From Victivallales bacterium (GTDB lineage Bacteria > Verrucomicrobiota > Lentisphaeria > Oligosphaerales > Oligosphaeraceae), in the NCBI GenBank assembly GCA_017615955.1, contig JAFZZD010000083.1:1-8062 (forward strand): a stretch of 8,062 nucleotides of DNA. Direction: 5' to 3'. Position numbers and translations under genes: made by a program. Shown piece after piece: positions 1 through 8,062 of the stretch. Within the stretch, counting starts at the first letter, position 1. Each line of letters starts with the position of its first letter. The notes under the pieces are model-generated. The model was not told where the DNA came from. It saw only the letters and a list, made by a program, of their open reading frames with translations, and made no database searches.

Positions 1-656
1 AGAATGAACGTGCTGAACTGGACAGGTGCGCACAGCTTCTGCCACAGGTGGAGGAATTGCACGGCAAGATGCGTTTCCAGCAGAAAAGGATGCTGCCTTT
101 GGTTGAGGCAATCTACAGGAGCCATTGCTATTATGAGGCCTTGCGCATCTGGCAGGCGGCGCAGTGGAAGCCAGGTCAAAAGGAGAGTAGCTGGGGCATT
201 TACCTTGCTGACGAGTATTCCTTTGCCCGTTCCAATGGCAAGAATGAGGAGGACAGTCCAATTCCCACGAGGAATGGCGCCTCAACTGCGAATCTCTTTG
301 ATGTGCAGGAACCACGTCCCAGTTCCACCGCATCGGCAAGCAAGCTAGTCAATGTGAATGATTTGCGCATCCTGAACAAGATATACATCGGCGGCATTGT
401 GCCAATGGGCCAATCCAGGTTCAAGATCCTGAAGGATGTGCAGGAGAAGTTGCTCAATTCCGGCGCATACGTCAATGTGGACGACCGCAGTGAATTGATG
501 ACAGAGCAGTTCAAAGGCAGTTTCTATTTGCCATGGCTGAATTTCCTTGGCGGGAATAGCTCTGCCCTTGGCAGTGAATACGCCACTTTCTTGCTGGAAT
601 TGCCATTGAACTCCAATTTCATCAGGGAAGATGTGCTGCGTAAAAACGGCAATTGA
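1..656 (+). CDS. PilN-like inner-membrane assembly protein, 5' end outside window (partial)
   Basis: The reading frame is open from the left edge (first full codon at position 3) to TGA at 654-656, so the N-terminus is missing; 217 residues are visible. A GTG at 48 could be read as a start, but the frame and its helical character continue upstream, so truncation by the window is more likely. Visible order: a charged, probably coiled-coil stretch (residues 1-35), a region ending in W-G-I-Y-L (about 64-68), a Ser/Pro/Asn-rich linker (about 77-113), then a compact segment (118-152) with the pattern I-G-G-I-V-P-M-G-Q-S followed by an amphipathic helix and G-A-Y-V-N-V. That pattern resembles the periplasmic 'G-x-A-x-S...L...S-x-x-F-x-x-V' segment of PilN/GspL-type proteins. 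The next two genes look PilO- and PilP-like, which supports the assignment. The missing part would be expected to hold the membrane segment, possibly fused to a PilM-like domain. Family name is tentative. Confidence 0.6.
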   Translation, partial: NERAELDRCAQLLPQVEELHGKMRFQQKRMLPLVEAIYRSHCYYEALRIWQAAQWKPGQKESSWGIYLADEYSFARSNGKNEEDSPIPTRNGASTANLFDVQEPRPSSTASASKLVNVNDLRILNKIYIGGIVPMGQSRFKILKDVQEKLLNSGAYVNVDDRSELMTEQFKGSFYLPWLNFLGGNSSALGSEYATFLLELPLNSNFIREDVLRKNGN

Positions 657-668
657 ACACAATAGAAT

Positions 669-1589
669 ATGTACAAGCCAAAATTAAAGGACTGGCCATA
701 TAGCCACGTCAGGCTGATGCACATTACAGTGTCGGGTCTGGCGCTGTCACTGCTTGTGCTGTGGCTTCTGGTGTATCCCAGCTGGCGTCGGCTCAAGTCG
801 ATGAGGCAGGAAACCGAGGCCGTCCGCATTGAACTTGAGAAACGCGGCATACAGTTGGACGAGGCTGTCCTGTCCCGCCATATTTCCGATTGCATAGCAA
901 GCCTGGCAGGGGACGAGACCAGGCTGGGTCTCGTCGATGTCGCTGGCAATGCAATGGCGCTTGCCATGCAGACTTTTGCGGATGAAATCAATTCCGCATA
1001 CGCAGGTGAGTCCGGCACTGCCGCAAAGCAGTCTGCTGTTGAGAAGTTTGTGGAGGGCAGTACCCGTATTGACTACAAGGTGCTCTATGACAGGGTTTAC
1101 TCCGAATGCGCGAAGTGCAGCGTGGATATAAGCCAGGCGACTATTTCGCCAGATGAGGACAGCAACGAGCCAGTCTATCAGCAGATGCTAAAACTATGGA
1201 CCTTGCGTTTTCTGGTCGGGCAGGCTGTGGAGAATGGTCTTTCTTTTGAGGCGGCAACGGACAATGCGCCTGCCATACGCGCATTGCGCAGCAGAGCATA
1301 CCTCAATGATGGCAGTGAACGCACCTACTTGCTGGAATTTCCTGTCATGTTGCGCCTGCAAGGCAAGCTGGAGAACTTCATTTCATTTGCGAAGAGTCTT
1401 CAGGGTGGCAGGCGTTTCCTGCCGATAAAGAGCATTGAGATTCACTCCACCCCACCTGCTGACTTTCCTCCAGGCGAAAGGCGTGAATTGGAAAATCTGC
1501 ATTTTCGCATAATATGTTCCGCATTCTTCGTGGAACCGCAACCTTCAAGTGGAGACCAGGCGAATACCGAGGCCAAGCCTGAAAATTGA
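669..1589 (+). CDS. PilO/GspM-like single-pass inner-membrane protein
   Basis: A 306-aa protein starting at ATG 669, 12 bp after the previous stop; no clear Shine-Dalgarno is visible. A short basic N-terminus precedes one strong hydrophobic segment (residues about 18-37). A charged, heptad-like helix follows (about 38-66), then a helical middle region and a C-terminal domain (about 220-290) with the pattern P-V-M-L-R-L-Q-G-K-L-E-N-F-I-S-F-A-K-S-L, then a beta strand around I-K-S-I-E-I-H, and F-R-I-I-C-S-A-F-F. Membrane anchor, coiled coil and a ferredoxin-like 'G-x-x-x-x-x-x-F' domain match PilO and GspM, periplasmic scaffold proteins that pair with PilN/GspL in type IV pilus or type II secretion platforms. 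Amuc_1100 of Akkermansia is a known PVC protein of similar architecture; homology to it is my inference. The C-terminal tail (about 291-306) is low-complexity and probably disordered. Confidence 0.65.
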   Translation: MYKPKLKDWPYSHVRLMHITVSGLALSLLVLWLLVYPSWRRLKSMRQETEAVRIELEKRGIQLDEAVLSRHISDCIASLAGDETRLGLVDVAGNAMALAMQTFADEINSAYAGESGTAAKQSAVEKFVEGSTRIDYKVLYDRVYSECAKCSVDISQATISPDEDSNEPVYQQMLKLWTLRFLVGQAVENGLSFEAATDNAPAIRALRSRAYLNDGSERTYLLEFPVMLRLQGKLENFISFAKSLQGGRRFLPIKSIEIHSTPPADFPPGERRELENLHFRIICSAFFVEPQPSSGDQANTEAKPEN

Positions 1590-1591
1590 AT

Positions 1592-2218
1592 ATGCTGGAG
1601 ATTGTTGTAAAAATAAGCAGGTGCTGGGAGCGCATGGCTTGTGCAGTCATGACCTTGCTGTGCATTCTGTGCATTCTGTGCTTCGTGCTGTTCATGCTGG
1701 AGGCCCCGTCTGCACCTGAAATCAAGGGCAAGAAGCCAATGGCATTGCGTATATTCCCATGGGATTCCCTTTCTGGAAACTTTTTCACGCCGGCGGTGCC
1801 TGATGCGGGCAAAGTCAATCCATTCCAGTATGTCCTTGTCAATCGCGACAAGCCAGTGCCTAAGCCAGTGGCCCCACCTGAAAAAGAGGAACCAAAAGTC
1901 AAGGAGATGCCAAAGGCCGAGGCTGTCAAGCCCATAGTTGTTGCGCCTCCGCATCCGCCGCCAAAGAAGCCTGATATCGTGTTTACCCTTACATACAAGG
2001 GCATCTATGTGGACTTGCGCGGCGATTCAGTTGCACTTGTGTCGATTAGACAAGGCGGGGCAGCAAAAGAGGAAACGCTTATGTGCAAGACGGGCACTGT
2101 GCTTATGGATAGGATTCGTCTGGAAAAGGTGGTCGAGGACAGCGCCACGTTCAGCACGAAGTCAGGACAGGTGCGGATAGACTGGATGAAAAGCCATCAG
2201 TTCCGTTTCCCCCAGTAA
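1592..2218 (+). CDS. PilP/GspC-like membrane-anchored protein with proline-rich linker
   Basis: A 208-aa protein. I chose ATG 1592, two bases after the upstream stop; an in-frame TTG at 1586 overlaps that stop and would add two residues. Neither start has a clear ribosome-binding site, and coupling to the upstream gene is likely. One transmembrane segment spans residues about 17-36 and contains Cys at 17, 24, 27 and 30. A periplasmic region follows, then a Pro/Lys/Glu-rich linker (about 88-127), then a small beta domain (about 129-194) with the pattern Y-K-G-I-Y-V-D-L, S-V-A-L-V-S-I, G-T-V-L-M-D-R-I-R-L and V-V-E-D-S-A-T-F-S-T-K-S-G. This order matches PilP and the homology region of GspC, which link the inner-membrane platform to the outer-membrane secretin. 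No secretin gene follows; the block ends at the palindromic repeat. Confidence 0.6.
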   Translation: MLEIVVKISRCWERMACAVMTLLCILCILCFVLFMLEAPSAPEIKGKKPMALRIFPWDSLSGNFFTPAVPDAGKVNPFQYVLVNRDKPVPKPVAPPEKEEPKVKEMPKAEAVKPIVVAPPHPPPKKPDIVFTLTYKGIYVDLRGDSVALVSIRQGGAAKEETLMCKTGTVLMDRIRLEKVVEDSATFSTKSGQVRIDWMKSHQFRFPQ

Positions 2219-2220
2219 TT

Positions 2221-2403
2221 CAACGCAGAGGCGCAAGTTTTTAACGCAGAGGCGCAAAGACGCAGAGACGCAGAGTTTTTATTGTTTTTGTTCTGTCACT
2301 AATGAGGATATTATTTCAGTGACAGATTTTTATTGCTGAAAAGCAAAACAAAAAAACTCTGCGTCTTTGCGTCTCTGCGTTGAAAACTAGTGTCTCTGCG
2401 CTG
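2221..2403. repeat. Imperfect palindromic 'ACGCAGAG' repeat element between convergent genes
   Basis: The space between the convergent blocks (2219-2414) is almost wholly this element. The left side has a 15-bp direct repeat, AACGCAGAGGCGCAA, at 2222-2236 and 2243-2257, the second copy running on in further CGCAGAG units to 2275 and a T-run (2276-2280). The right side carries the inverse: an A-run to 2356, an arm at 2357-2381 and a degraded outer arm at 2391-2403. Arm 2243-2267 and arm 2357-2381 are complementary at 24 of 25 positions; the outer pair (2221-2233 with 2391-2403) matches at 10 of 13. Transcripts of either strand could fold into one long hairpin. There is no ORF or transposase inside. 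It resembles short dispersed intergenic repeats (REP- or MITE-like), though no second copy can be seen here. I saw no flanking target-site duplication. Confidence 0.85.
2292..2331 (+). terminator. Probable intrinsic terminator inside the repeat element
   Basis: TCTGTCACT (2292-2300) and AGTGACAGA (2318-2326) form a perfect 9-bp stem around a 17-nt loop, followed at once by TTTTTATT on the + strand. It lies about 75 bp past the end of the PilP-like gene and would stop transcription of the pilus-like block. On the minus strand this small stem is followed by AACAAAAAC, so it is not a canonical terminator there. The larger palindrome, whose minus-strand copy has a T-run next to the arm at 2357-2381, may serve that direction. 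The stem is only moderately GC-rich, so strength is uncertain. Confidence 0.5.
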
Positions 2404-2414
2404 ATAATGATTTG

Positions 2415-3641
2415 TTATTTTTTTAGTTGCGCGGAGACTTGCTGGAATGCCTCCATCATCTGATCCGAGTAGATGGTATCCATCAAAGGCGGGTTGAAGT
2501 TGACGAGTTCTGAATAGTCTTGGGAACTGTCCTGAATCAGCTTGAGAAGACTGGCGCCAGTGGACACTGTCTTGAATGTATTGCGTGTTATGGCCACGTT
2601 GCGTTGCACCTTGCCGCGTGATTTCTCAAGGCTTTTGCCCATTTCCTCAAGTGCCGTGCGGTACTGACCGGCGATTTTTATTGTGTTTTCGCTTATGCGC
2701 ATGTTCTGTATCAGGTAGTTTTCACCTTCTTGTGATGATTGATGCAGCGTCTTTGTCTCCTGGAGATTCGCTTCGGCACTCCTCCGTATTTCCTGCAGAC
2801 GGGGAAGGTATTTCTTCTGGATGTTCTCCATTGCCACCACATGCGCCTGTTCGTATGCCAGAAGCAGTACTAGCTGGATGCCGACATAGCGCTGCAACTG
2901 GGCTCCATTGAACTGTGAGGAAGCCTTTATTTGCTTGCCTATGGCGTATTGCACTTGCTTGAGGATAATGGCCAGGTTCATCATGCTCATTATATCGTCT
3001 CCTCCAGCGGCTGTAAGCAGGTAATTGAGATGCTTGGCATCTACAATCTGGCCGTGCCTGTTCAGGTCATGCAGCAAAATTGTCGTCTGTTTTTTTATTT
3101 CAATATTGAGGGTATCTATGTTTTCCTGTGTTTTCTGGATTTGCTTGTCGCATTTTTCCCTTGTCATGGCAAGGGGATTGAGTGAACTTACGGGATAGCC
3201 CAGGCGGCCGGCTATCAGTTCAGTTTTTTTCTTCTCCGCCTCCGCAAGTTCATCCTGCATATCAAGGATTTTCTCATAACTTTCAATGCCTGCCTTGCTG
3301 GCAATGAGTTTCAATGCGGATTCGGTCAATTTCTTGGAGCGGCGCCCGAACCAGGACTTGTCGTTGCCTGCAAGCACATCGTCATAGTCGCTGGCAAGTT
3401 CGTCCATGCCATGCCATATTTGTGTGAACTTGTTGGTCTCGATTTCAGTTTCCAGCACTTCCTCAATGTCTTGGCTCGGATGAGGGGCCAGGGCAGGGCT
3501 GCTTGTGGCGTCAGTCCCTCCCATTTTCTCCTTTATTATTGCCAATGAGCCAGCAGTGGTTTCCTGAATGGCAATGCATCCTGAAAGCAATGCAATGGCC
3601 ATGCATGGCATAAAAAACATTGTCTTGCGAAAAATGGACAT
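2415..3641 (-). CDS. Predicted outer-membrane lipoprotein, long-helix/coiled-coil, function unknown
   Basis: I chose the ATG at 3641 (408 aa) because it puts a standard lipoprotein signal at the N-terminus: Ser-Ile-Phe-Arg-Lys, a hydrophobic core, then lipobox L-S-G-C with Cys at residue 22. The frame stays open to an ATG at 3719 (434 aa), but that adds a basic, hydrophilic leader unusual for a signal peptide; ATGs at 3662 and 3653 are also possible. AGGA lies 11 nt before the chosen start. Residue +2 after the Cys is Ile, not Asp, so the Lol rule predicts the outer membrane. The mature part is almost all helical: charged coiled-coil-like stretches at about 124-189 and 270-344, with a more hydrophobic helix at about 254-271. 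I recognise no family. It follows the ClpC-like gene by 100 bp (22 bp if the long start is used) and is probably in the same transcript. Confidence 0.75.
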   Translation of the reverse strand: MSIFRKTMFFMPCMAIALLSGCIAIQETTAGSLAIIKEKMGGTDATSSPALAPHPSQDIEEVLETEIETNKFTQIWHGMDELASDYDDVLAGNDKSWFGRRSKKLTESALKLIASKAGIESYEKILDMQDELAEAEKKKTELIAGRLGYPVSSLNPLAMTREKCDKQIQKTQENIDTLNIEIKKQTTILLHDLNRHGQIVDAKHLNYLLTAAGGDDIMSMMNLAIILKQVQYAIGKQIKASSQFNGAQLQRYVGIQLVLLLAYEQAHVVAMENIQKKYLPRLQEIRRSAEANLQETKTLHQSSQEGENYLIQNMRISENTIKIAGQYRTALEEMGKSLEKSRGKVQRNVAITRNTFKTVSTGASLLKLIQDSSQDYSELVNFNPPLMDTIYSDQMMEAFQQVSAQLKK

Positions 3642-3741
3642 ATTTGCGGACATCCTGTGCATTGTTTGGTGTTGTTTTGATATCTCTCGCCGAATGATAT
3701 TACGATAGCGCGTGTTCATCAGTACGCTGGAGCCATGTAGT

Positions 3742-6183
3742 TCATTCTATTGTGACGCTGTTCTTTGTTATATGGGCGATGAATGGTCTGTTGGACTGTT
3801 CCTCTTTCAGGAGTTCGTCAGCCAGGCGGTTTTCCAGTAGTTCCTCGACTGCGCGTCTTATTAGCCTGGCGCCGCCTTCCTTTGCCTTTGCCCTCTCCAT
3901 GATTGCGTCGAATACATCGTCGGCCACATCCAGCTTGCCATTGATGCGTTCCAGCCTCTTCTCCAGCTTGTCAATCTCCAGTCTGGCAATTGCCTTAAGG
4001 TCATCTTCGTTGAGCTGCCTGAAGAACACGATTTCGTCAATGCGGTTCAGTACCTCTGGCCTGAAGAAGCTTTTGACTGATTTCATGCTCTGCTCCTGAA
4101 GTTTCTCGTTTTCATTGTCGGGTGATTGCTCGCCGAAGCCCAGCGTATGCAGACCCGCGCCTTTTTCGGAACCCAGGTTCGAGGTCATTATGATGATGGT
4201 GTTCCTGAAGCTGATGCAGTTTCCCTGCTCGTCGGTAAGCTGCCCTTCCTCAAGCAATTGGAGCAATATGTTTATCACCTGGGGATGCGCCTTCTCGATT
4301 TCATCGAAAAGCACCACTGAATATGGCTTGTGCCGCACCTTCTCCGTGAGATGGCCGCCTTCGCCGTAGCCCACATATCCAGGTGACGAGCCAAGCAGCT
4401 TGGAAACATTGTAGCCATCCGCATACTCTGACATGTCAAGGCGGATCAGGGCCTCCCTGTCATTGAACATGAAATCAGCCAATGCCTTCGCCATAAGGGA
4501 CTTGCCCACGCCGCTGGGGCCTACAAACAGAAACGAGCCTATGGGACGGCGGGGGTCGCCAAGCTCGGCACGGCTGCGCTTTAGTGCATTGCTCAGCGCA
4601 TTAACCGCGCTTTCCTGCCCGATTACTGTCTTGGAAAGCTCCTTCCCTATCTCCAGCATCCGCTTCCTCTCCTCCACATTCATCTTTTCCAGTGGAACGC
4701 CTGACATCTTAGACACGACAGAGCGTATGTCGTCAAGCCCGATGTTCACGATTGCCGGCTCCTTGCCCAGGTTTTCGTCCTTGCTTGATTCGCGCAGCCT
4801 TACCATGGCGCCAGTCTCGTCAATGATGTCGATTGCCTTGTCAGGAAGTTGCCTTGCAGGCAGATAGCGAACTGAAAGGAAAACCGCCGCCTCCAGAACC
4901 TCGTCGCTGTATTTGACCTTGTGGAACGTCTCGTAGCTCTGGGCTATGCCCTTGAGAATTTTCACCGCGTCCTCCGGCGTGGGTTCGCCTACCATGACAG
5001 TCTGGAATCTGCGTTCCAGCGCCTGGTTCTTCTCAATTGTATTGCGGTATTCCTTGATTGTGGTTGCGCCTATGCATTGTATTTCGCCGCGGGAGAGGGC
5101 GGGCTTGATGATGTTTGAAATGTCCAGACCGTCCTCCCGTCCCGAGCCTGCGCCCACGATGGTGTGTATTTCGTCCAGAAACAGAATGTATTTGTTGCTT
5201 TTCTTCAATTCTGCGAGGATTTTGGCCATTCTGTCCTCGAACATTCCGCGGTATTGAGTGCCTGCGATAAGCAAGGTCACGTCCAGCGAGAAGATGTGCT
5301 TGTTGCGCAGCACTTCAGGCACCTTTCCTGCCGCGATGTTCATTGCAAGCCCCTCCACGATTGCGGTCTTGCCCACGCCGGCCTCTCCCAGCAGCACCAC
5401 GTTGTTCTTGATTTTGCGGCTGAGCACCTGCGTGATGCGCTGTATTTCGTTTTCCCTGCCTATGACGGGGTCGAACATGCTTTGCTTGGCAAGTTCGGTA
5501 AGGTCTTTGCCGTAGTGGTCCAGAAGTGAACGTTGCATGGGCTGTTCCTTCTGTGGCTTCAGCGTTGATTGCCGTGCCTCGCGTCTGCCCTTGCGGGAAG
5601 GCTGCTCCTGGGCGCCATCTGGCGAAGACGCTTCACCTTGTGCCTTCTCCGCCTTGGGTTCCCCGTCCCTTTCAGAATCTCTGGTTTCGATTATATCCTC
5701 TATGGTACCCTGTCCCAGAGGCAGGTATGATGAATCCAGGTCCTTGAGGATTTCATTCCTTATTTCGCTCTTGTCGATTTGCAGCTGGTTGAAAATCTCG
5801 GCAATTTGCCCCTGGTTGATAAAGAACATTCCCAGCAGAATCTGCTCCATGCCAACATAGCTGTAGTGAATCGCCTTGGCCTCCCTGATGGCGAATTTCA
5901 GCATCTTTGCCACGTCTGCCGTGAATGCAGGAGTAGCTGGCGTCGCCCCTTTGCCTTCATCTGTTTGCTCTTGAACAATCAGTTTATGCACTGCTTCGTA
6001 TGTGACACCTGCATTTTGCAGCGCCTGCTGTGCTTGGCTTGGCTTTGACTGGAGCATTGCAAGCAAAATGTGCTCGGGGCCAATCGATGCCAGTTTTTCC
6101 GCCTTGCCGATTTCAACTGCATCCAAAAACATCTTCTTCACTCTTGGAGTGCAGTACTTCAGGTATTCTTCAATATGTTCCAT
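3742..6183 (-). CDS. ClpC-like AAA+ unfoldase lacking the M-domain
   Basis: An 813-aa Hsp100 protein that would unfold proteins in the cytosol and feed them to ClpP. Order: two Clp-N repeats (about 1-75 and 85-148), a charged low-complexity linker (about 160-218), AAA-1 with Walker A GEAGVGKT (266-273), pore-loop YRG (311-313), Walker B ILFLDE (333-338) and R391/R392. AAA-2 follows with Walker A GPSGVGKS (555-562), pore-loop GYVG (602-605), Walker B VVLFDE (623-628), R714 and sensor-2 GAR (771-773). An LGF tripeptide (681-683) sits where ClpC carries its ClpP-docking loop. AAA-2 reads closer to ClpC than ClpA (L-G-D-P-R-R-P-I-G-S-F). The coiled M-domain expected after V-R-L-R (461-464) is absent: about 13 residues replace it. 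Glu37 and Glu113 match B. subtilis ClpC E32 and E106, the phosphoarginine-site residues. Start ATG overlaps the upstream stop (TAATG). No clpP lies in the window. Confidence 0.93.
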   Translation of the reverse strand: MEHIEEYLKYCTPRVKKMFLDAVEIGKAEKLASIGPEHILLAMLQSKPSQAQQALQNAGVTYEAVHKLIVQEQTDEGKGATPATPAFTADVAKMLKFAIREAKAIHYSYVGMEQILLGMFFINQGQIAEIFNQLQIDKSEIRNEILKDLDSSYLPLGQGTIEDIIETRDSERDGEPKAEKAQGEASSPDGAQEQPSRKGRREARQSTLKPQKEQPMQRSLLDHYGKDLTELAKQSMFDPVIGRENEIQRITQVLSRKIKNNVVLLGEAGVGKTAIVEGLAMNIAAGKVPEVLRNKHIFSLDVTLLIAGTQYRGMFEDRMAKILAELKKSNKYILFLDEIHTIVGAGSGREDGLDISNIIKPALSRGEIQCIGATTIKEYRNTIEKNQALERRFQTVMVGEPTPEDAVKILKGIAQSYETFHKVKYSDEVLEAAVFLSVRYLPARQLPDKAIDIIDETGAMVRLRESSKDENLGKEPAIVNIGLDDIRSVVSKMSGVPLEKMNVEERKRMLEIGKELSKTVIGQESAVNALSNALKRSRAELGDPRRPIGSFLFVGPSGVGKSLMAKALADFMFNDREALIRLDMSEYADGYNVSKLLGSSPGYVGYGEGGHLTEKVRHKPYSVVLFDEIEKAHPQVINILLQLLEEGQLTDEQGNCISFRNTIIIMTSNLGSEKGAGLHTLGFGEQSPDNENEKLQEQSMKSVKSFFRPEVLNRIDEIVFFRQLNEDDLKAIARLEIDKLEKRLERINGKLDVADDVFDAIMERAKAKEGGARLIRRAVEELLENRLADELLKEEQSNRPFIAHITKNSVTIE

Positions 6184-6782
6184 TATTGGTTGCTTTCCGT
6201 AAGCAGTTTGAGTTTTTGCTGTATGATAAGATCCCTGTTGGCTGCGCGTTTATGTATCTGGAACTTCAGCTCGTTCAGCTGCGCCTCCATATTCTTCAGT
6301 TTCTTCTCCTCCATCTCCTGGGATTTGTCAAAGCTGTTTTTGAGAACAGTTTCCAGCTTTGCCTTCAATTCCTGGATTTGGTTGATGTCCTCCTTGTTCT
6401 GCCGCATGGTCTTGATGGCGTATGAGAGTTTACGAATCTCCATCTCCATCCGCAGCTGCTCCACATTGTACAGATAGAAGTCCGGCGCCTTTTTACGCAT
6501 GTCTTCTATGGTGGAATATCTTTTTGCCAGGGCGTTAAGGTAGGCTTGTGCCGTATTTGGGGTATATATGCACCTGACTCGCCATTCGTTGAGGGTATCG
6601 GGGGCATTCTGCTCGTAGAAGTCCAGCATCTCATCCACTTTTATGCCGGGAAATTGCCTTGCGACTTCCTTCAAGGTGCGCTCCCTGGCCGTGTCTGCCT
6701 CAACGCGCTGTTTTTCCGTCAGCTCCTGGCTTGAGGAGGCCAGAACCAGGAACAAGAACAGTAATGTGAGATAAATGCGCAT
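6183..6782 (-). CDS. Exported coiled-coil protein of unknown function
   Basis: A 199-aa protein. Residues 1-18 form a typical Sec signal peptide: Arg2, a Leu/Phe-rich core (5-15), then small residues A-S-S-S before Gln-Glu-Leu. There is no lipobox Cys, so the mature protein is probably periplasmic or secreted. The rest is charged and helical: a segment with F-P-G-I-K-V-D-E-M-L-D-F-Y (44-56), then a heptad-rich helical hairpin (about 103-195) rich in Glu, Lys, Leu and Met that ends in K-R-A-A-N-R-D-L-I-I-Q-Q-K-L. The only cysteine is at 71. I do not recognise a named family; the C-terminal hairpin is reminiscent of periplasmic helical proteins of the CpxP/CnrX type and of planctomycete hypothetical proteins, but this is impression only. 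Its ATG shares one base with the M20 stop (TGATG), and its TAA shares one base with the ClpC-like ATG. Confidence 0.8.
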   Translation of the reverse strand: MRIYLTLLFLFLVLASSSQELTEKQRVEADTARERTLKEVARQFPGIKVDEMLDFYEQNAPDTLNEWRVRCIYTPNTAQAYLNALAKRYSTIEDMRKKAPDFYLYNVEQLRMEMEIRKLSYAIKTMRQNKEDINQIQELKAKLETVLKNSFDKSQEMEEKKLKNMEAQLNELKFQIHKRAANRDLIIQQKLKLLTESNQ

Positions 6783-7978
6783 CAGAATGTCTTCTTTGCA
6801 AACTGAACAAAGAAATCTGCTGTTTCCTGCATGCTGGCCAATGGCAGTCTTTCATTGGCTGAATGCGCACCTTTGCCGGCAAGACCTAGAATGGCAATGG
6901 GAACACCCATCTTCTTGAAGTGGCGCGCATCCGTGGCGCCTGACAGGTGGCTCCAGGTGATTTCACGCCCTTTGAAAAACGCCTCCAACTCCTTTTTGAT
7001 GTTCTGAAGCGCTGGGGCGTCCTGGTTGCAGTTCACAGGTTCGCTTGTCCCGAGAATGGTGACTTCCATCCCTGTGATTTTCTTGACTAAGTCAATGGTC
7101 TTTTCCACATCGCCATCTTTGGTGACACGGAAATTAAGCGTCATGCTTGCCTTGTCTGGGATCTGGTTGTGGGTTGAACCTGCGTGGAATTGGCAAAGGG
7201 CCATTGAATTGTATTCCAGAAGATTGCCTTTCAAGTCTGGCTTTGGCCAGGCGTCCCTCAATTTGACGTATGCGTTGATAAGCTCGTCAATGCAGTTCTT
7301 GACGCGCCATGGCGCCGCCGAATGGCCTGTCTGCCCTTTGGCTGTCACAGTCATGGAAATTATGCCCTTTTGCGAGATGGCGATTTTGTAGTTGTCCGCA
7401 TCCACGACGGCAATGAATTTGGCGCCTTCTCCATAGCCGCGGGCCACCATTTCAGCCGTGGTCTTGCCGCCGATTTCCTCATCGCCGCTGAAAATGCAGG
7501 AGACTGCCTTGCCTGAATCCTTTAGGCGCACCAGTGTCTGCGCAAGGCAGACTGTGCATCCCATGCAGTCGGACGTGCCTCTTCCATAGATGACGCCGCC
7601 CTTGATTTCAGGTGTGTACTGGCTTTCATTAATGGCGGGCACCACGTCAATGTGGGAATTCAGCAGAAAGTCCGTCTTCTTGCCCTTGACTGTTGATGCA
7701 TAGAGCACCTTGTAGCCAAGACAATCCTCGACCGTGCAGTGGATGCCTTTTTCCTTGAGGAATGACGCCAGCACCTCGGTGGCGCGGCTGACCGCCGCCG
7801 TGTCCGATGAAACAGGCCTGCATTGTATCAACTTCTTAAGCAAATCAACATAAACCTCATCTACTTTTGTTTCCTTCCTGGCGGAAACGAATGTTTCAGG
7901 TGTTTGGGGCTTTTTCAATTCCTGGCTTGGTGAGACCATTGCCAATAACAGTAATAAAGTCGCTAGATAAATACGCAT
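6782..7978 (-). CDS. Exported M20-family zinc metallopeptidase (ArgE/DapE/CPG2-like)
   Basis: A 398-aa hydrolase expected to cleave a peptide, dipeptide or N-acyl amino acid using two metal ions. The N-terminus is a Sec signal (1-18, leucine-rich core, no lipobox), so it should act outside the cytoplasm, unlike classical ArgE or DapE. Expected M20 landmarks are present: S-H109-I-D111 (metal ligand and activating Asp), G-R-G-T-S-D137 (bridging Asp), S-G-D-E167-E168 (catalytic base and ligand), D193 (ligand), G-H219-S-A-x-P and H-N-Q-I-P-D in the lid domain, and G-A-H372-S-A-N-E (final ligand). The usual D-M-K-G after the bridging Asp is D-C-M-G, within a C-x-x-C-x-x-C run (138, 141, 144); ten cysteines in all are present. 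Start ATG 7978 overlaps the upstream stop (TAATG) behind a strong AAGGAG. The upstream partial gene is a close paralogue. Substrate cannot be read from the sequence. Confidence 0.92.
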   Translation of the reverse strand: MRIYLATLLLLLAMVSPSQELKKPQTPETFVSARKETKVDEVYVDLLKKLIQCRPVSSDTAAVSRATEVLASFLKEKGIHCTVEDCLGYKVLYASTVKGKKTDFLLNSHIDVVPAINESQYTPEIKGGVIYGRGTSDCMGCTVCLAQTLVRLKDSGKAVSCIFSGDEEIGGKTTAEMVARGYGEGAKFIAVVDADNYKIAISQKGIISMTVTAKGQTGHSAAPWRVKNCIDELINAYVKLRDAWPKPDLKGNLLEYNSMALCQFHAGSTHNQIPDKASMTLNFRVTKDGDVEKTIDLVKKITGMEVTILGTSEPVNCNQDAPALQNIKKELEAFFKGREITWSHLSGATDARHFKKMGVPIAILGLAGKGAHSANERLPLASMQETADFFVQFAKKTF

Positions 7979-8062
7979 TAGAACTCCTTTTTTGCAAATA
8001 GTACGAAGAAATCGGCGGTTTCCTGCAGGCTTGACAAGGGCAGCTTCTCGTTGGCGCTATGC
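7978..8062 (-). CDS. C-terminus of a second, tandem M20-family metallopeptidase (partial)
   Basis: Only the last 27 codons and a TAA (7980-7978) lie in the window; the 5' part is beyond the right edge. The peptide starts H-S-A-N-E-K-L-P-L and ends F-A-K-K-E-F. It aligns without gaps to residues 372-398 of the complete M20 protein with 22 of 27 identical, including the final metal-ligand His and the following Glu. This is therefore the tail of a tandem paralogue in the same operon, directly upstream in the direction of transcription. Its stop codon shares a base with the next ATG. Because it is too short to stand as an ORF on its own, it is easily missed. Confidence 0.9.
   Translation of the reverse strand, partial: HSANEKLPLSSLQETADFFVLFAKKEF
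7984..7989 (-). promoter_or_regulatory. Strong ribosome-binding site for the complete M20 gene
   Basis: On the minus strand AAGGAG sits 5 nt before the ATG at 7978, within the last codons of the upstream paralogue. It is the best Shine-Dalgarno in the window and fixes the start. At the matching place before the 199-aa gene (start 6782) the sequence has drifted to AAGACA, while 15 of the 20 bases ending in ATG are the same at the two junctions. The ClpC-like gene has only a weaker GGAAAG about 11 nt before its ATG. Confidence 0.75.

Follow-up and report, generated by a model that had tools for sequence, protein, structure and literature searches.

A ClpC-type unfoldase without an M-domain and the operon that encodes it in a Victivallales bacterium

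A stretch of 8,062 nucleotides from a Victivallales bacterium (GenBank assembly GCA_017615955.1, contig JAFZZD010000083.1, positions 1 to 8,062), referred to below as the window, carries a minus-strand chain of genes for two M20 family enzymes (M20-1 and M20-2), a 199-amino-acid (aa) protein (p199) and a ClpC-like unfoldase, followed by a lipoprotein gene. The locus raises the question whether these genes make up one conserved system or came together in another way, and what the unfoldase does among them. The answer considered somewhat better founded than not is that of an operon which is specific to its lineage, belongs to a rumen Victivallales bacterium and was assembled stepwise; its ClpC naturally lacks the M-domain and is predicted to be derepressed.

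The closest relative of the window locus (locus L001) occurs in a goat-rumen Victivallales metagenome-assembled genome (MAG RGIG3456; genome G001), with which it shares the gene order M20-2, p199, clpC, lipoprotein. The amino acid identities are 96% for M20-2, 92% for p199, 97% for ClpC, and 92% for the lipoprotein. At a synonymous divergence (dS) of 0.32-0.37, the ratios of nonsynonymous to synonymous divergence (dN/dS) are 0.062 (M20-2, from codon 22 on), 0.107 (p199), 0.046 (ClpC), and 0.113 (lipoprotein), indicating purifying selection on all four genes. Genome G001 is a fragmented assembly, with contig numbers up to 803 seen. Wider comparisons covered a family set of 29 genomes (G001 among them) and a class set of 197 genomes. 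A sequence-only reading of the window had described a tight operon for a ClpC-like unfoldase and for two proteins with signal-peptide-like starts (an M20 enzyme and a helical protein), and a lipoprotein downstream; this anatomy was borne out. That the M-domain is absent and that two of the gene joints share one origin had been overlooked.

The unfoldase and its missing M-domain

The features of the unfoldase gene are the following:
3742..6183, minus strand: ClpC, 813 aa, without M-domain and with a ClpP-binding loop (PDB match, trees, dN/dS 0.046)
4764..4770, minus strand: approximate position of the M-domain gap, around residue 473, with about 47 residues missing
4135..4143, minus strand: tripeptide LGF at residues 681-683, in the ClpP-binding loop (alignment, motif read)

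Domain searches (Pfam, NCBIfam) and searches of the PDB assigned the window protein to the ClpC/ClpB/ClpA type, the best PDB match being ClpC 6em8 (3.9e-191). It possesses an N-domain that matches Clp_N in two stretches (PF02861, 4.2e-16), two AAA+ modules with their Walker motifs (GEAGVGKT266, FLDEIH335, GPSGVGKS555, and LFDEIEKA625), and a ClpP-binding loop with LGF at residue 681. The coiled coil of about 47 residues that forms the M-domain in D1 is absent. Indeed, the M-domain stretch counts 65 residues in the window protein and in that of G001, versus 112-114 in 20/20 other ClpC rows of the family, all distinct, full-length, inside the ClpC clade, and from 20 genomes other than G001. Seven rows fall outside this count, namely four plus two ClpA-like ones (55, 63, and 69 residues in the same stretch) and one of the ClpB type (180 residues). 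From eight of the 29 genomes no ClpC row was obtained, as the gene was fragmented, missing or not retrieved (G004, G011, G015, G019, G021, G022, G023, and G027). The charged linker between the N-domain and D1 is long, spanning residues ~150-215 (5736-5539) in the window protein versus 143-157 in the ClpC of PDB 6em8.

ClpA also combines a ClpP-binding loop with the absence of an M-domain, and ClpA-type genes are common in the class, with an M-region of 56-57 residues in the 11 examined, so that the window protein might be a ClpA-type unfoldase that never had an M-domain. This is very improbable, as its phylogenetic place is within ClpC and outside the ClpA clade. In a tree of the full protein, the window and G001 sequences stand beside those of G002 and G024 within ClpC (100/100, branch 1.67), and they keep this place in a tree of D1 and D2 only, made without M-domain columns and with 11 ClpA-type rows added (100/98, branch 1.24). 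Furthermore, the two-stretch Clp_N match and the best PDB matches are those of a ClpC, and the loop reads LGF versus IGF in the 11 ClpA-type rows. A search of the class set (E 1e-125, five candidates scored per genome) found matches in 44 genomes; except for those of G001, G002, and G024, they were nearly always confined to D1/D2, in the manner of ClpA-type proteins, and the eleven checked in the tree were of the ClpA type. As judged from its sequence, the window protein is a ClpC by descent, although not a canonical M-domain ClpC. Given its placement beside the M-domain-bearing proteins of G002 and G024, the M-domain was most likely lost on the branch leading to the window and G001.

Alternatively, the protein may be an extra paralogue born in this lineage, with an M-domain-bearing housekeeping ClpC encoded elsewhere and the operon copy serving a special, perhaps envelope-linked, task. 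This explanation is possible but clearly less probable than the favoured one. The long branch in both trees is in line with it, as is the fragmented state of G001, from which ClpP and ClpB were recovered only in part. However, searches of G001 gave a single complete gene of the ClpC type, and a second strong match, the fragment C803, is 62% identical to a ClpB-type row; in the sister-group genome G002, ClpC was seen once, together with a gene of the ClpB type and a divergent one resembling ClpA; and a dN/dS of 0.046 fits a core gene.

The consequences of M-domain removal can be gauged from published work, as far as the available excerpts of the articles go. Replacement of the M-domain (N411-K457, 47 residues) of ClpC by two glycines strongly increased casein proteolysis without MecA, and the derepressed M-domain point mutant F436A was toxic together with ClpP in Escherichia coli and Bacillus subtilis (PMC5699869, excerpt). 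M-domain contacts hold ClpC in a resting state that is released upon binding of phosphoarginine (pArg) or MecA (PMC12583610, excerpt), and the M-domain of actinomycetotal ClpC, about 20 residues by a narrower definition, is strictly conserved in length (PMC10149685, excerpt). As in the engineered deletion described in the excerpt of PMC5699869, a 47-residue element is gone from the window ClpC at the same place and D1, D2, and the ClpP-binding loop are intact; unlike it, the window form is natural, under purifying selection, and evidently tolerated by the organism. Since the engineered deletion makes ClpC adaptor-independent, the window ClpC is predicted to be naturally derepressed. Without M-domains, it should not form the head-to-head resting state and is expected to process unfolded substrates independently of an adaptor, at a dose set by the expression of the operon. 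This matters in view of the published notion that ClpC needs repression through its M-domains and is toxic when derepressed. A natural and selected ClpC without this element would show how a cell copes, be it by another control, by restraint from the N-domain or by a low dose, and the window ClpC is a ready test protein. Among the articles listed by literature searches on M-domain-less ClpC, on ClpC, arginine kinase and extracytoplasmic function (ECF) sigma factors of Lentisphaerae, and on signal-peptide capture, none described this locus or a ClpC that naturally lacks the M-domain, which does not prove that no such description has been published.

Compared with the ClpC of Bacillota and Actinomycetota, of which the ClpCP form is regulated by MecA or McsB, the window ClpC has the N-domain, D1, D2, Walker motifs and LGF-type loop in common; it differs in the loss of the ~47-residue M-domain, in its longer linker, in the lack of adjoining mcsA and mcsB genes and in the absence of a McsB-like match in G001. 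Neither in the window nor in L001 do mcsA and mcsB adjoin clpC. The McsB-type domain PF00217 was found in 22/29 family genomes; in nine of these 22, it shares a contig with clpC and lies no more than a few kb from it. A profile of five family McsB rows recovered the same 22 genomes at 1e-48 or better and matched G002, G004, and G027-G029 weakly (3e-9 to 2e-14). With PF00217, this profile and the G002 protein as queries, McsB was not found in G001 or G024. Pfam gave no match for the McsB-like protein of G002 (L207 1273-2322; 349 aa), and its NCBIfam arginine-kinase matches are weak (1e-6). A large part of the conserved first half is missing from it, and its gene does not adjoin clpC. A similarly diverged McsB-like protein of 349 aa, also without a Pfam kinase match, is encoded in G004 (L208 440-1489), and both are possibly degenerate or repurposed kinases. 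Judged from these sequences, the kinase is degenerate (G002) or unseen (G001 and G024) in the clade, and G002 and G024 retain the M-domain. A McsB loss across the whole clade of G001, G002, and G024, as deduced from PF00217 alone, was withdrawn, as PF00217 matched none of its 14 control genomes and the family profile detects the diverged G002 protein. Other McsB-type matches lie in long frames, of 566-628 aa in G009-G012, G016, and G020-G023, on contigs other than that of the listed ClpC match, and of 655-699 aa, weakly, in G027-G029; these are perhaps fusions. ClpP was found in 27/29 genomes, including G001, in which it is cut by a contig end.

The pArg pocket and the resting-state contacts were also compared. 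Residues T7, E32, and E106 of Staphylococcus aureus ClpC (PMC12583610, excerpt) have matching counterparts in the window protein (T12, E37, and E113), E32 and E106 varying in McsB-bearing relatives. The resting-state contact residues K85, D356, and R122 differ in the window protein but vary in relatives too, and were dropped as evidence.

Gene joints, the repeat and the predicted exported M20 enzyme

Upstream of clpC, the chain comprises the following features:
7978..8062, minus strand: 3' end of M20-1, 27 residues plus stop, a predicted cytosolic M20 enzyme cut by the window edge
6782..7978, minus strand: M20-2, 398 aa, with a signal-peptide-like start (PF01546, 3e-30; PF07687, 8e-16)
7916..7978, minus strand: segment of M20-2 for the signal peptide, interpreted as copied from the start of p199
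6183..6782, minus strand: p199, 199 aa, predicted to be exported and all-helical (AlphaFold, homologues, dN/dS 0.107)
6719..6866, minus strand: repeat copy A (family D1), comprising an M20 end, the joint and the p199 signal peptide
7915..8062, minus strand: repeat copy B, comprising an M20 end, the joint and the M20-2 signal peptide, 71% identical to copy A and touching the window edge

Three one-base overlaps, as had been read from the sequence, are present. The M20-1 stop TAA (7980-7978) shares a base with the M20-2 ATG at 7978, the M20-2 stop TGA (6784-6782) with the p199 ATG at 6782, and the p199 stop TAA (6185-6183) with the clpC ATG at 6183, all three by direct reading. The latter two are unchanged in L001, the only ones comparable there, as that contig begins within M20-2. 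Relatives provided 32 loci, near-duplicates included, with 160 same-strand neighbour pairs, of which one showed a one-base start/stop overlap and 14 a four-base one. The identical script counted one-base overlaps in 2/5 pairs of the window and 2/2 of L001, and an earlier count over 22 loci without open ends gave 0/113 for one-base and 11/113 for four-base overlaps. Among these genomes, such a chain is therefore uncommon, beyond what chance would give.

The proposal that such overlaps fix the stoichiometry of the products does not follow from them. A direct repeat of 148 nucleotides with 71% identity (6719-6866 and 7915-8062) covers the 3' end of an M20 gene, the joint and then a signal peptide. 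As it spans both joints, the first and the second are one joint that was copied, and not independent of each other. The locus illustrates the spread of stop/start overlaps through copying rather than selection for stoichiometry. By eye, a good AAGGAG precedes the M20-2 ATG on the minus strand, and only weak purine runs precede those of p199 and clpC, so that translation of the latter two may depend more on reinitiation than that of M20-2.

M20-2 has the catalytic and dimerisation domains of the M20 family and the metal-binding-type motifs HIDV109, SDCMGC136, GDEEIGG165, VVDADN191, and GAHSANE370, of which HxD, SD, EE, D, and AHSANE presumably provide ligands. Domains and motifs are those of DapE/ArgE-like enzymes; M20-2 differs from these in a signal peptide that resembles that of its neighbour and in its equivalog score, the best NCBIfam equivalog reaching 129.4 bits versus a cut-off of 381, so that an identification as DapE was not obtained. 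The starts of M20-2 and p199 are identical at 42/63 bases without gaps, and their gapped alignment scores 21, compared with a mean of -11.8 (standard deviation 4.4, maximum 3) for codon-shuffled sequences (n=2000). The nearest full homologue of M20-2 is P0064 (96%), followed by P0065-P0068 (361 aa, 58-75%), which lack a signal peptide. Among the 120 listed of 169 M20 homologues above the cut-off, a hydrophobic N-terminus, as defined by a 12-residue hydropathy threshold, was found in six, and the M20-2 type only in P0064. The other five (P0091, P0156, P0160, P0168, and P0178) carry different hydrophobic N-termini, those of P0156 and P0168 being lipoprotein-like by eye, which suggests independent gains and a repeated export of the enzyme. 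Since the nearest M20 orthologues are without signal peptide and the p199 homologues P0001-P0008 all open with a hydrophobic stretch (by eye), copying from p199 to M20-2 is the simplest direction.

The earlier placement of both M20 enzymes outside the inner membrane agrees with the signal-peptide-like start of M20-2 and is probably wrong for M20-1. The visible residues of M20-1 are identical at 27/27 positions to the end of P0066, a protein of 361 aa that has no signal peptide, and the G001 copy (L116 2353-3228) begins with MENSVYIDLL, equally without signal peptide; M20-1 is probably cytosolic. A homologue (51%) of a G002 gene matching TIGR04073 lies upstream of this G001 copy, giving the order TIGR04073-like, M20 in G001 and TIGR04073-like, M20, p199 in G002. 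The locus offers a clear candidate case of export acquired by a cytosolic enzyme through a tandem duplication that captured the signal peptide of the next gene. The duplication was placed in a clade that also contains P0067. A fossil M20 ribosome-binding site in the M20-2 leader, suggestive by eye, is not claimed, as the G001 M20-1 leader is not clearly alignable.

Neighbourhoods of clpC, p199 and the lipoprotein

The gene that follows the chain is:
2415..3641, minus strand: lipoprotein, 408 aa, helical, with lipobox Cys22 (55 homologues), 100 nucleotides after clpC

Its start is most likely at 3641 and not at 3719, which leaves the gap of 100 nucleotides. It carries an LLSGC lipobox, the Cys of which is invariant in 27/27 aligned sequences, as expected from the sequence of a bacterial lipoprotein. 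Homologues numbered 55 at E 1e-3 and were present in 12/29 family genomes; the structural model (mean predicted local distance difference test score (pLDDT) 65.6) was too poor for a structure search.

An envelope quality-control or peptide-recycling system might be read into this set of genes, in which exported M20-2 would trim peptides, p199 would sense or hold unfolded envelope proteins, and co-translated ClpC would clear cytosolic precursors. The shared operon, with its rare one-base overlaps kept in two species, favours it, and so does the company of the p199 homologues. Directly upstream and on the same strand, genes for an ECF-type sigma factor (matching Sigma70_r2 and r4) and a putative anti-sigma factor precede p199 in 15/30 loci, recovered from the 32 class genomes with a p199 member. 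Such a context is usual for envelope-stress control. Yet neighbourhoods across the relatives go against it, and the system is quite unlikely. P199 adjoins clpC in 1/30 loci (G001) and M20 in 2/30 (G001 and G002), the lipoprotein adjoins clpC in 1/7 loci, and matching M20, p199 or lipoprotein genes flank clpC in none of the 12 other family clpC loci read with their flanks. Moreover, no homologue of the putative anti-sigma factor was found in G001, and the products belong in different compartments. The gene-neighbourhood searches proposed earlier, with p199 and the lipoprotein as queries, thus found clpC beside them only in G001, and ClpC homologues regularly occur without these neighbours, the very finding that had been named as refuting one system. 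A conserved multi-gene system was rejected in view of the clpC, p199 and lipoprotein neighbourhoods alike; a chance operon had been among the options listed. In the favoured reading, the envelope genes and ClpC would have no direct functional link, and it is the operon that would now regulate ClpC.

As to p199, members were found in 17/29 family genomes with a narrow alignment and in 32/197 class genomes with a broad one (at most 15 candidates scored per genome). The sigma/anti-sigma/p199 triple recurs in the class (L035-L037, L039-L042, L049, L171, L172, L174, L175, and L177-L179), one further locus has the putative anti-sigma gene alone at a contig end, and L183, with a weak sigma match, was not counted. 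The second gene, for which the L035 copy gave no Pfam match, is presumed to encode an anti-sigma factor in view of its position, its HxxxCxxC (Cys/His) motif and a run of hydrophobic residues; homologues occur in 20/29 family genomes. The AlphaFold model of p199 consists of helices only (mean pLDDT 87.8) and gave no Foldseek match at E 0.001, the VIA-align rows being generic helix pairs. The 17 family members matched no Pfam family at the cut-off (best stray E 0.0024). A likeness to periplasmic helical sensors such as Spy, CpxP, ZraP, and CnrX is a possible lead, on which the fact that CpxP, Spy, and CnrX were not listed has no bearing. In ECF sigma/anti-sigma operons with a third gene, p199 homologues take the third place in those 15/30 loci, and the window p199 itself stands outside such a context. 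Most likely, p199 serves as an accessory to a sigma module for envelope stress, the two having become separate in several lineages.

Family clpC loci have neighbours of their own. Genes resembling FHA and HldE follow clpC in 8/12 loci, and mcsA-mcsB precede it in five of these eight; the loci of G002, G024, G025, and G026 have none of these neighbours. Neighbours were recounted by tblastn, as automatic open reading frame picking hid genes in GC-rich loci. The lipoprotein alignment, scanned over the genome contigs, gave seven loci including L001, and the other six had no M20, p199 or clpC nearby within up to 10 kb on each side. All named homologues of p199 and the lipoprotein are from Victivallales.

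Proposed history of the operon

A history in three steps would account for these observations. First, an older pair, a cytosolic M20 enzyme followed by exported p199, would have stood downstream of an exported TIGR04073-type gene. Second, tandem duplication of a unit that covered the M20 gene and reached into the p199 start would have given a second M20 copy that begins with the start codon and signal peptide of p199, placing an exported M20-2 beside the cytosolic M20-1 and copying the stop/start joint. Third, clpC, which stands behind mcsA-mcsB in many relatives, would have been placed directly behind p199, and the M-domain would have been lost in this branch. Ribosomes finishing one gene would restart on the next, M20-2 and p199 would be exported, and ClpC would remain in the cytosol and feed ClpP. 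A further-reaching version is unlikely to hold, namely that the M-domain off-switch, released by McsB and pArg, was replaced by control at the gene level, with the ClpC dosage linked through stop/start coupling to p199, as an exported protein of an envelope-stress sigma module, and to a newly exported M20 enzyme, and the state of the envelope setting the ClpCP capacity of the cytosol.

Several points weigh against a stepwise operon with a derepressed ClpC. The arrangement rests on one lineage, the window and G001 being close kin. The ClpC branch of the two is long, and the N-domain contact residues are variable across the family, so that they do not independently indicate that the resting state was lost. 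That neither McsB nor a second, canonical ClpC was found in the fragmented G001 proves nothing, and the PF00217 search matched 0/14 control genomes, which makes its negatives weak; B. subtilis, among the usual controls, has McsB, so that true kinases escape this search when it is used alone. Loss of the kinase alone does not remove the M-domain, as G024 gave no McsB-like match and yet retains this domain. Finally, derepression through M-domain loss is partial, since M-domain mutants left folded GFP-SsrA nearly undegraded, except when they also lacked the N-domain (PMC5699869, excerpt). The contigs of P0064 and P0002, of equal size (2892), hint at a third case of the arrangement without establishing it.

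Mobility and signals of transcription were considered too. A plasmid link through M20 was uninformative, as 295 of 72,556 plasmid records matched, all below 60% identity (~23-26% in the 20 listed), and a scan of viral contigs with ClpC confirmed no relative. Promoters and terminators of the window numbered 6 and 7, versus 6.6 and 10.2 expected, which allows no inference.

Beyond the lipoprotein gene, three plus-strand genes (3-656, 669-1589, and 1586-2218) are oriented toward the chain. Visual inspection likens the second to PilO/GspM-type and the third to PilP/GspC-type components of pili or type II secretion systems, the second having a single weak GspM match (E 0.079). Between the two converging gene sets, the intergenic region 2219-2404 holds an array of ACGCAGAGACGCAGAG-type units that forms a 48-nucleotide inverted repeat (arms 2220-2267 and 2357-2404, 88% complementary), possibly a bidirectional terminator like those of repetitive extragenic palindromic (REP) elements.

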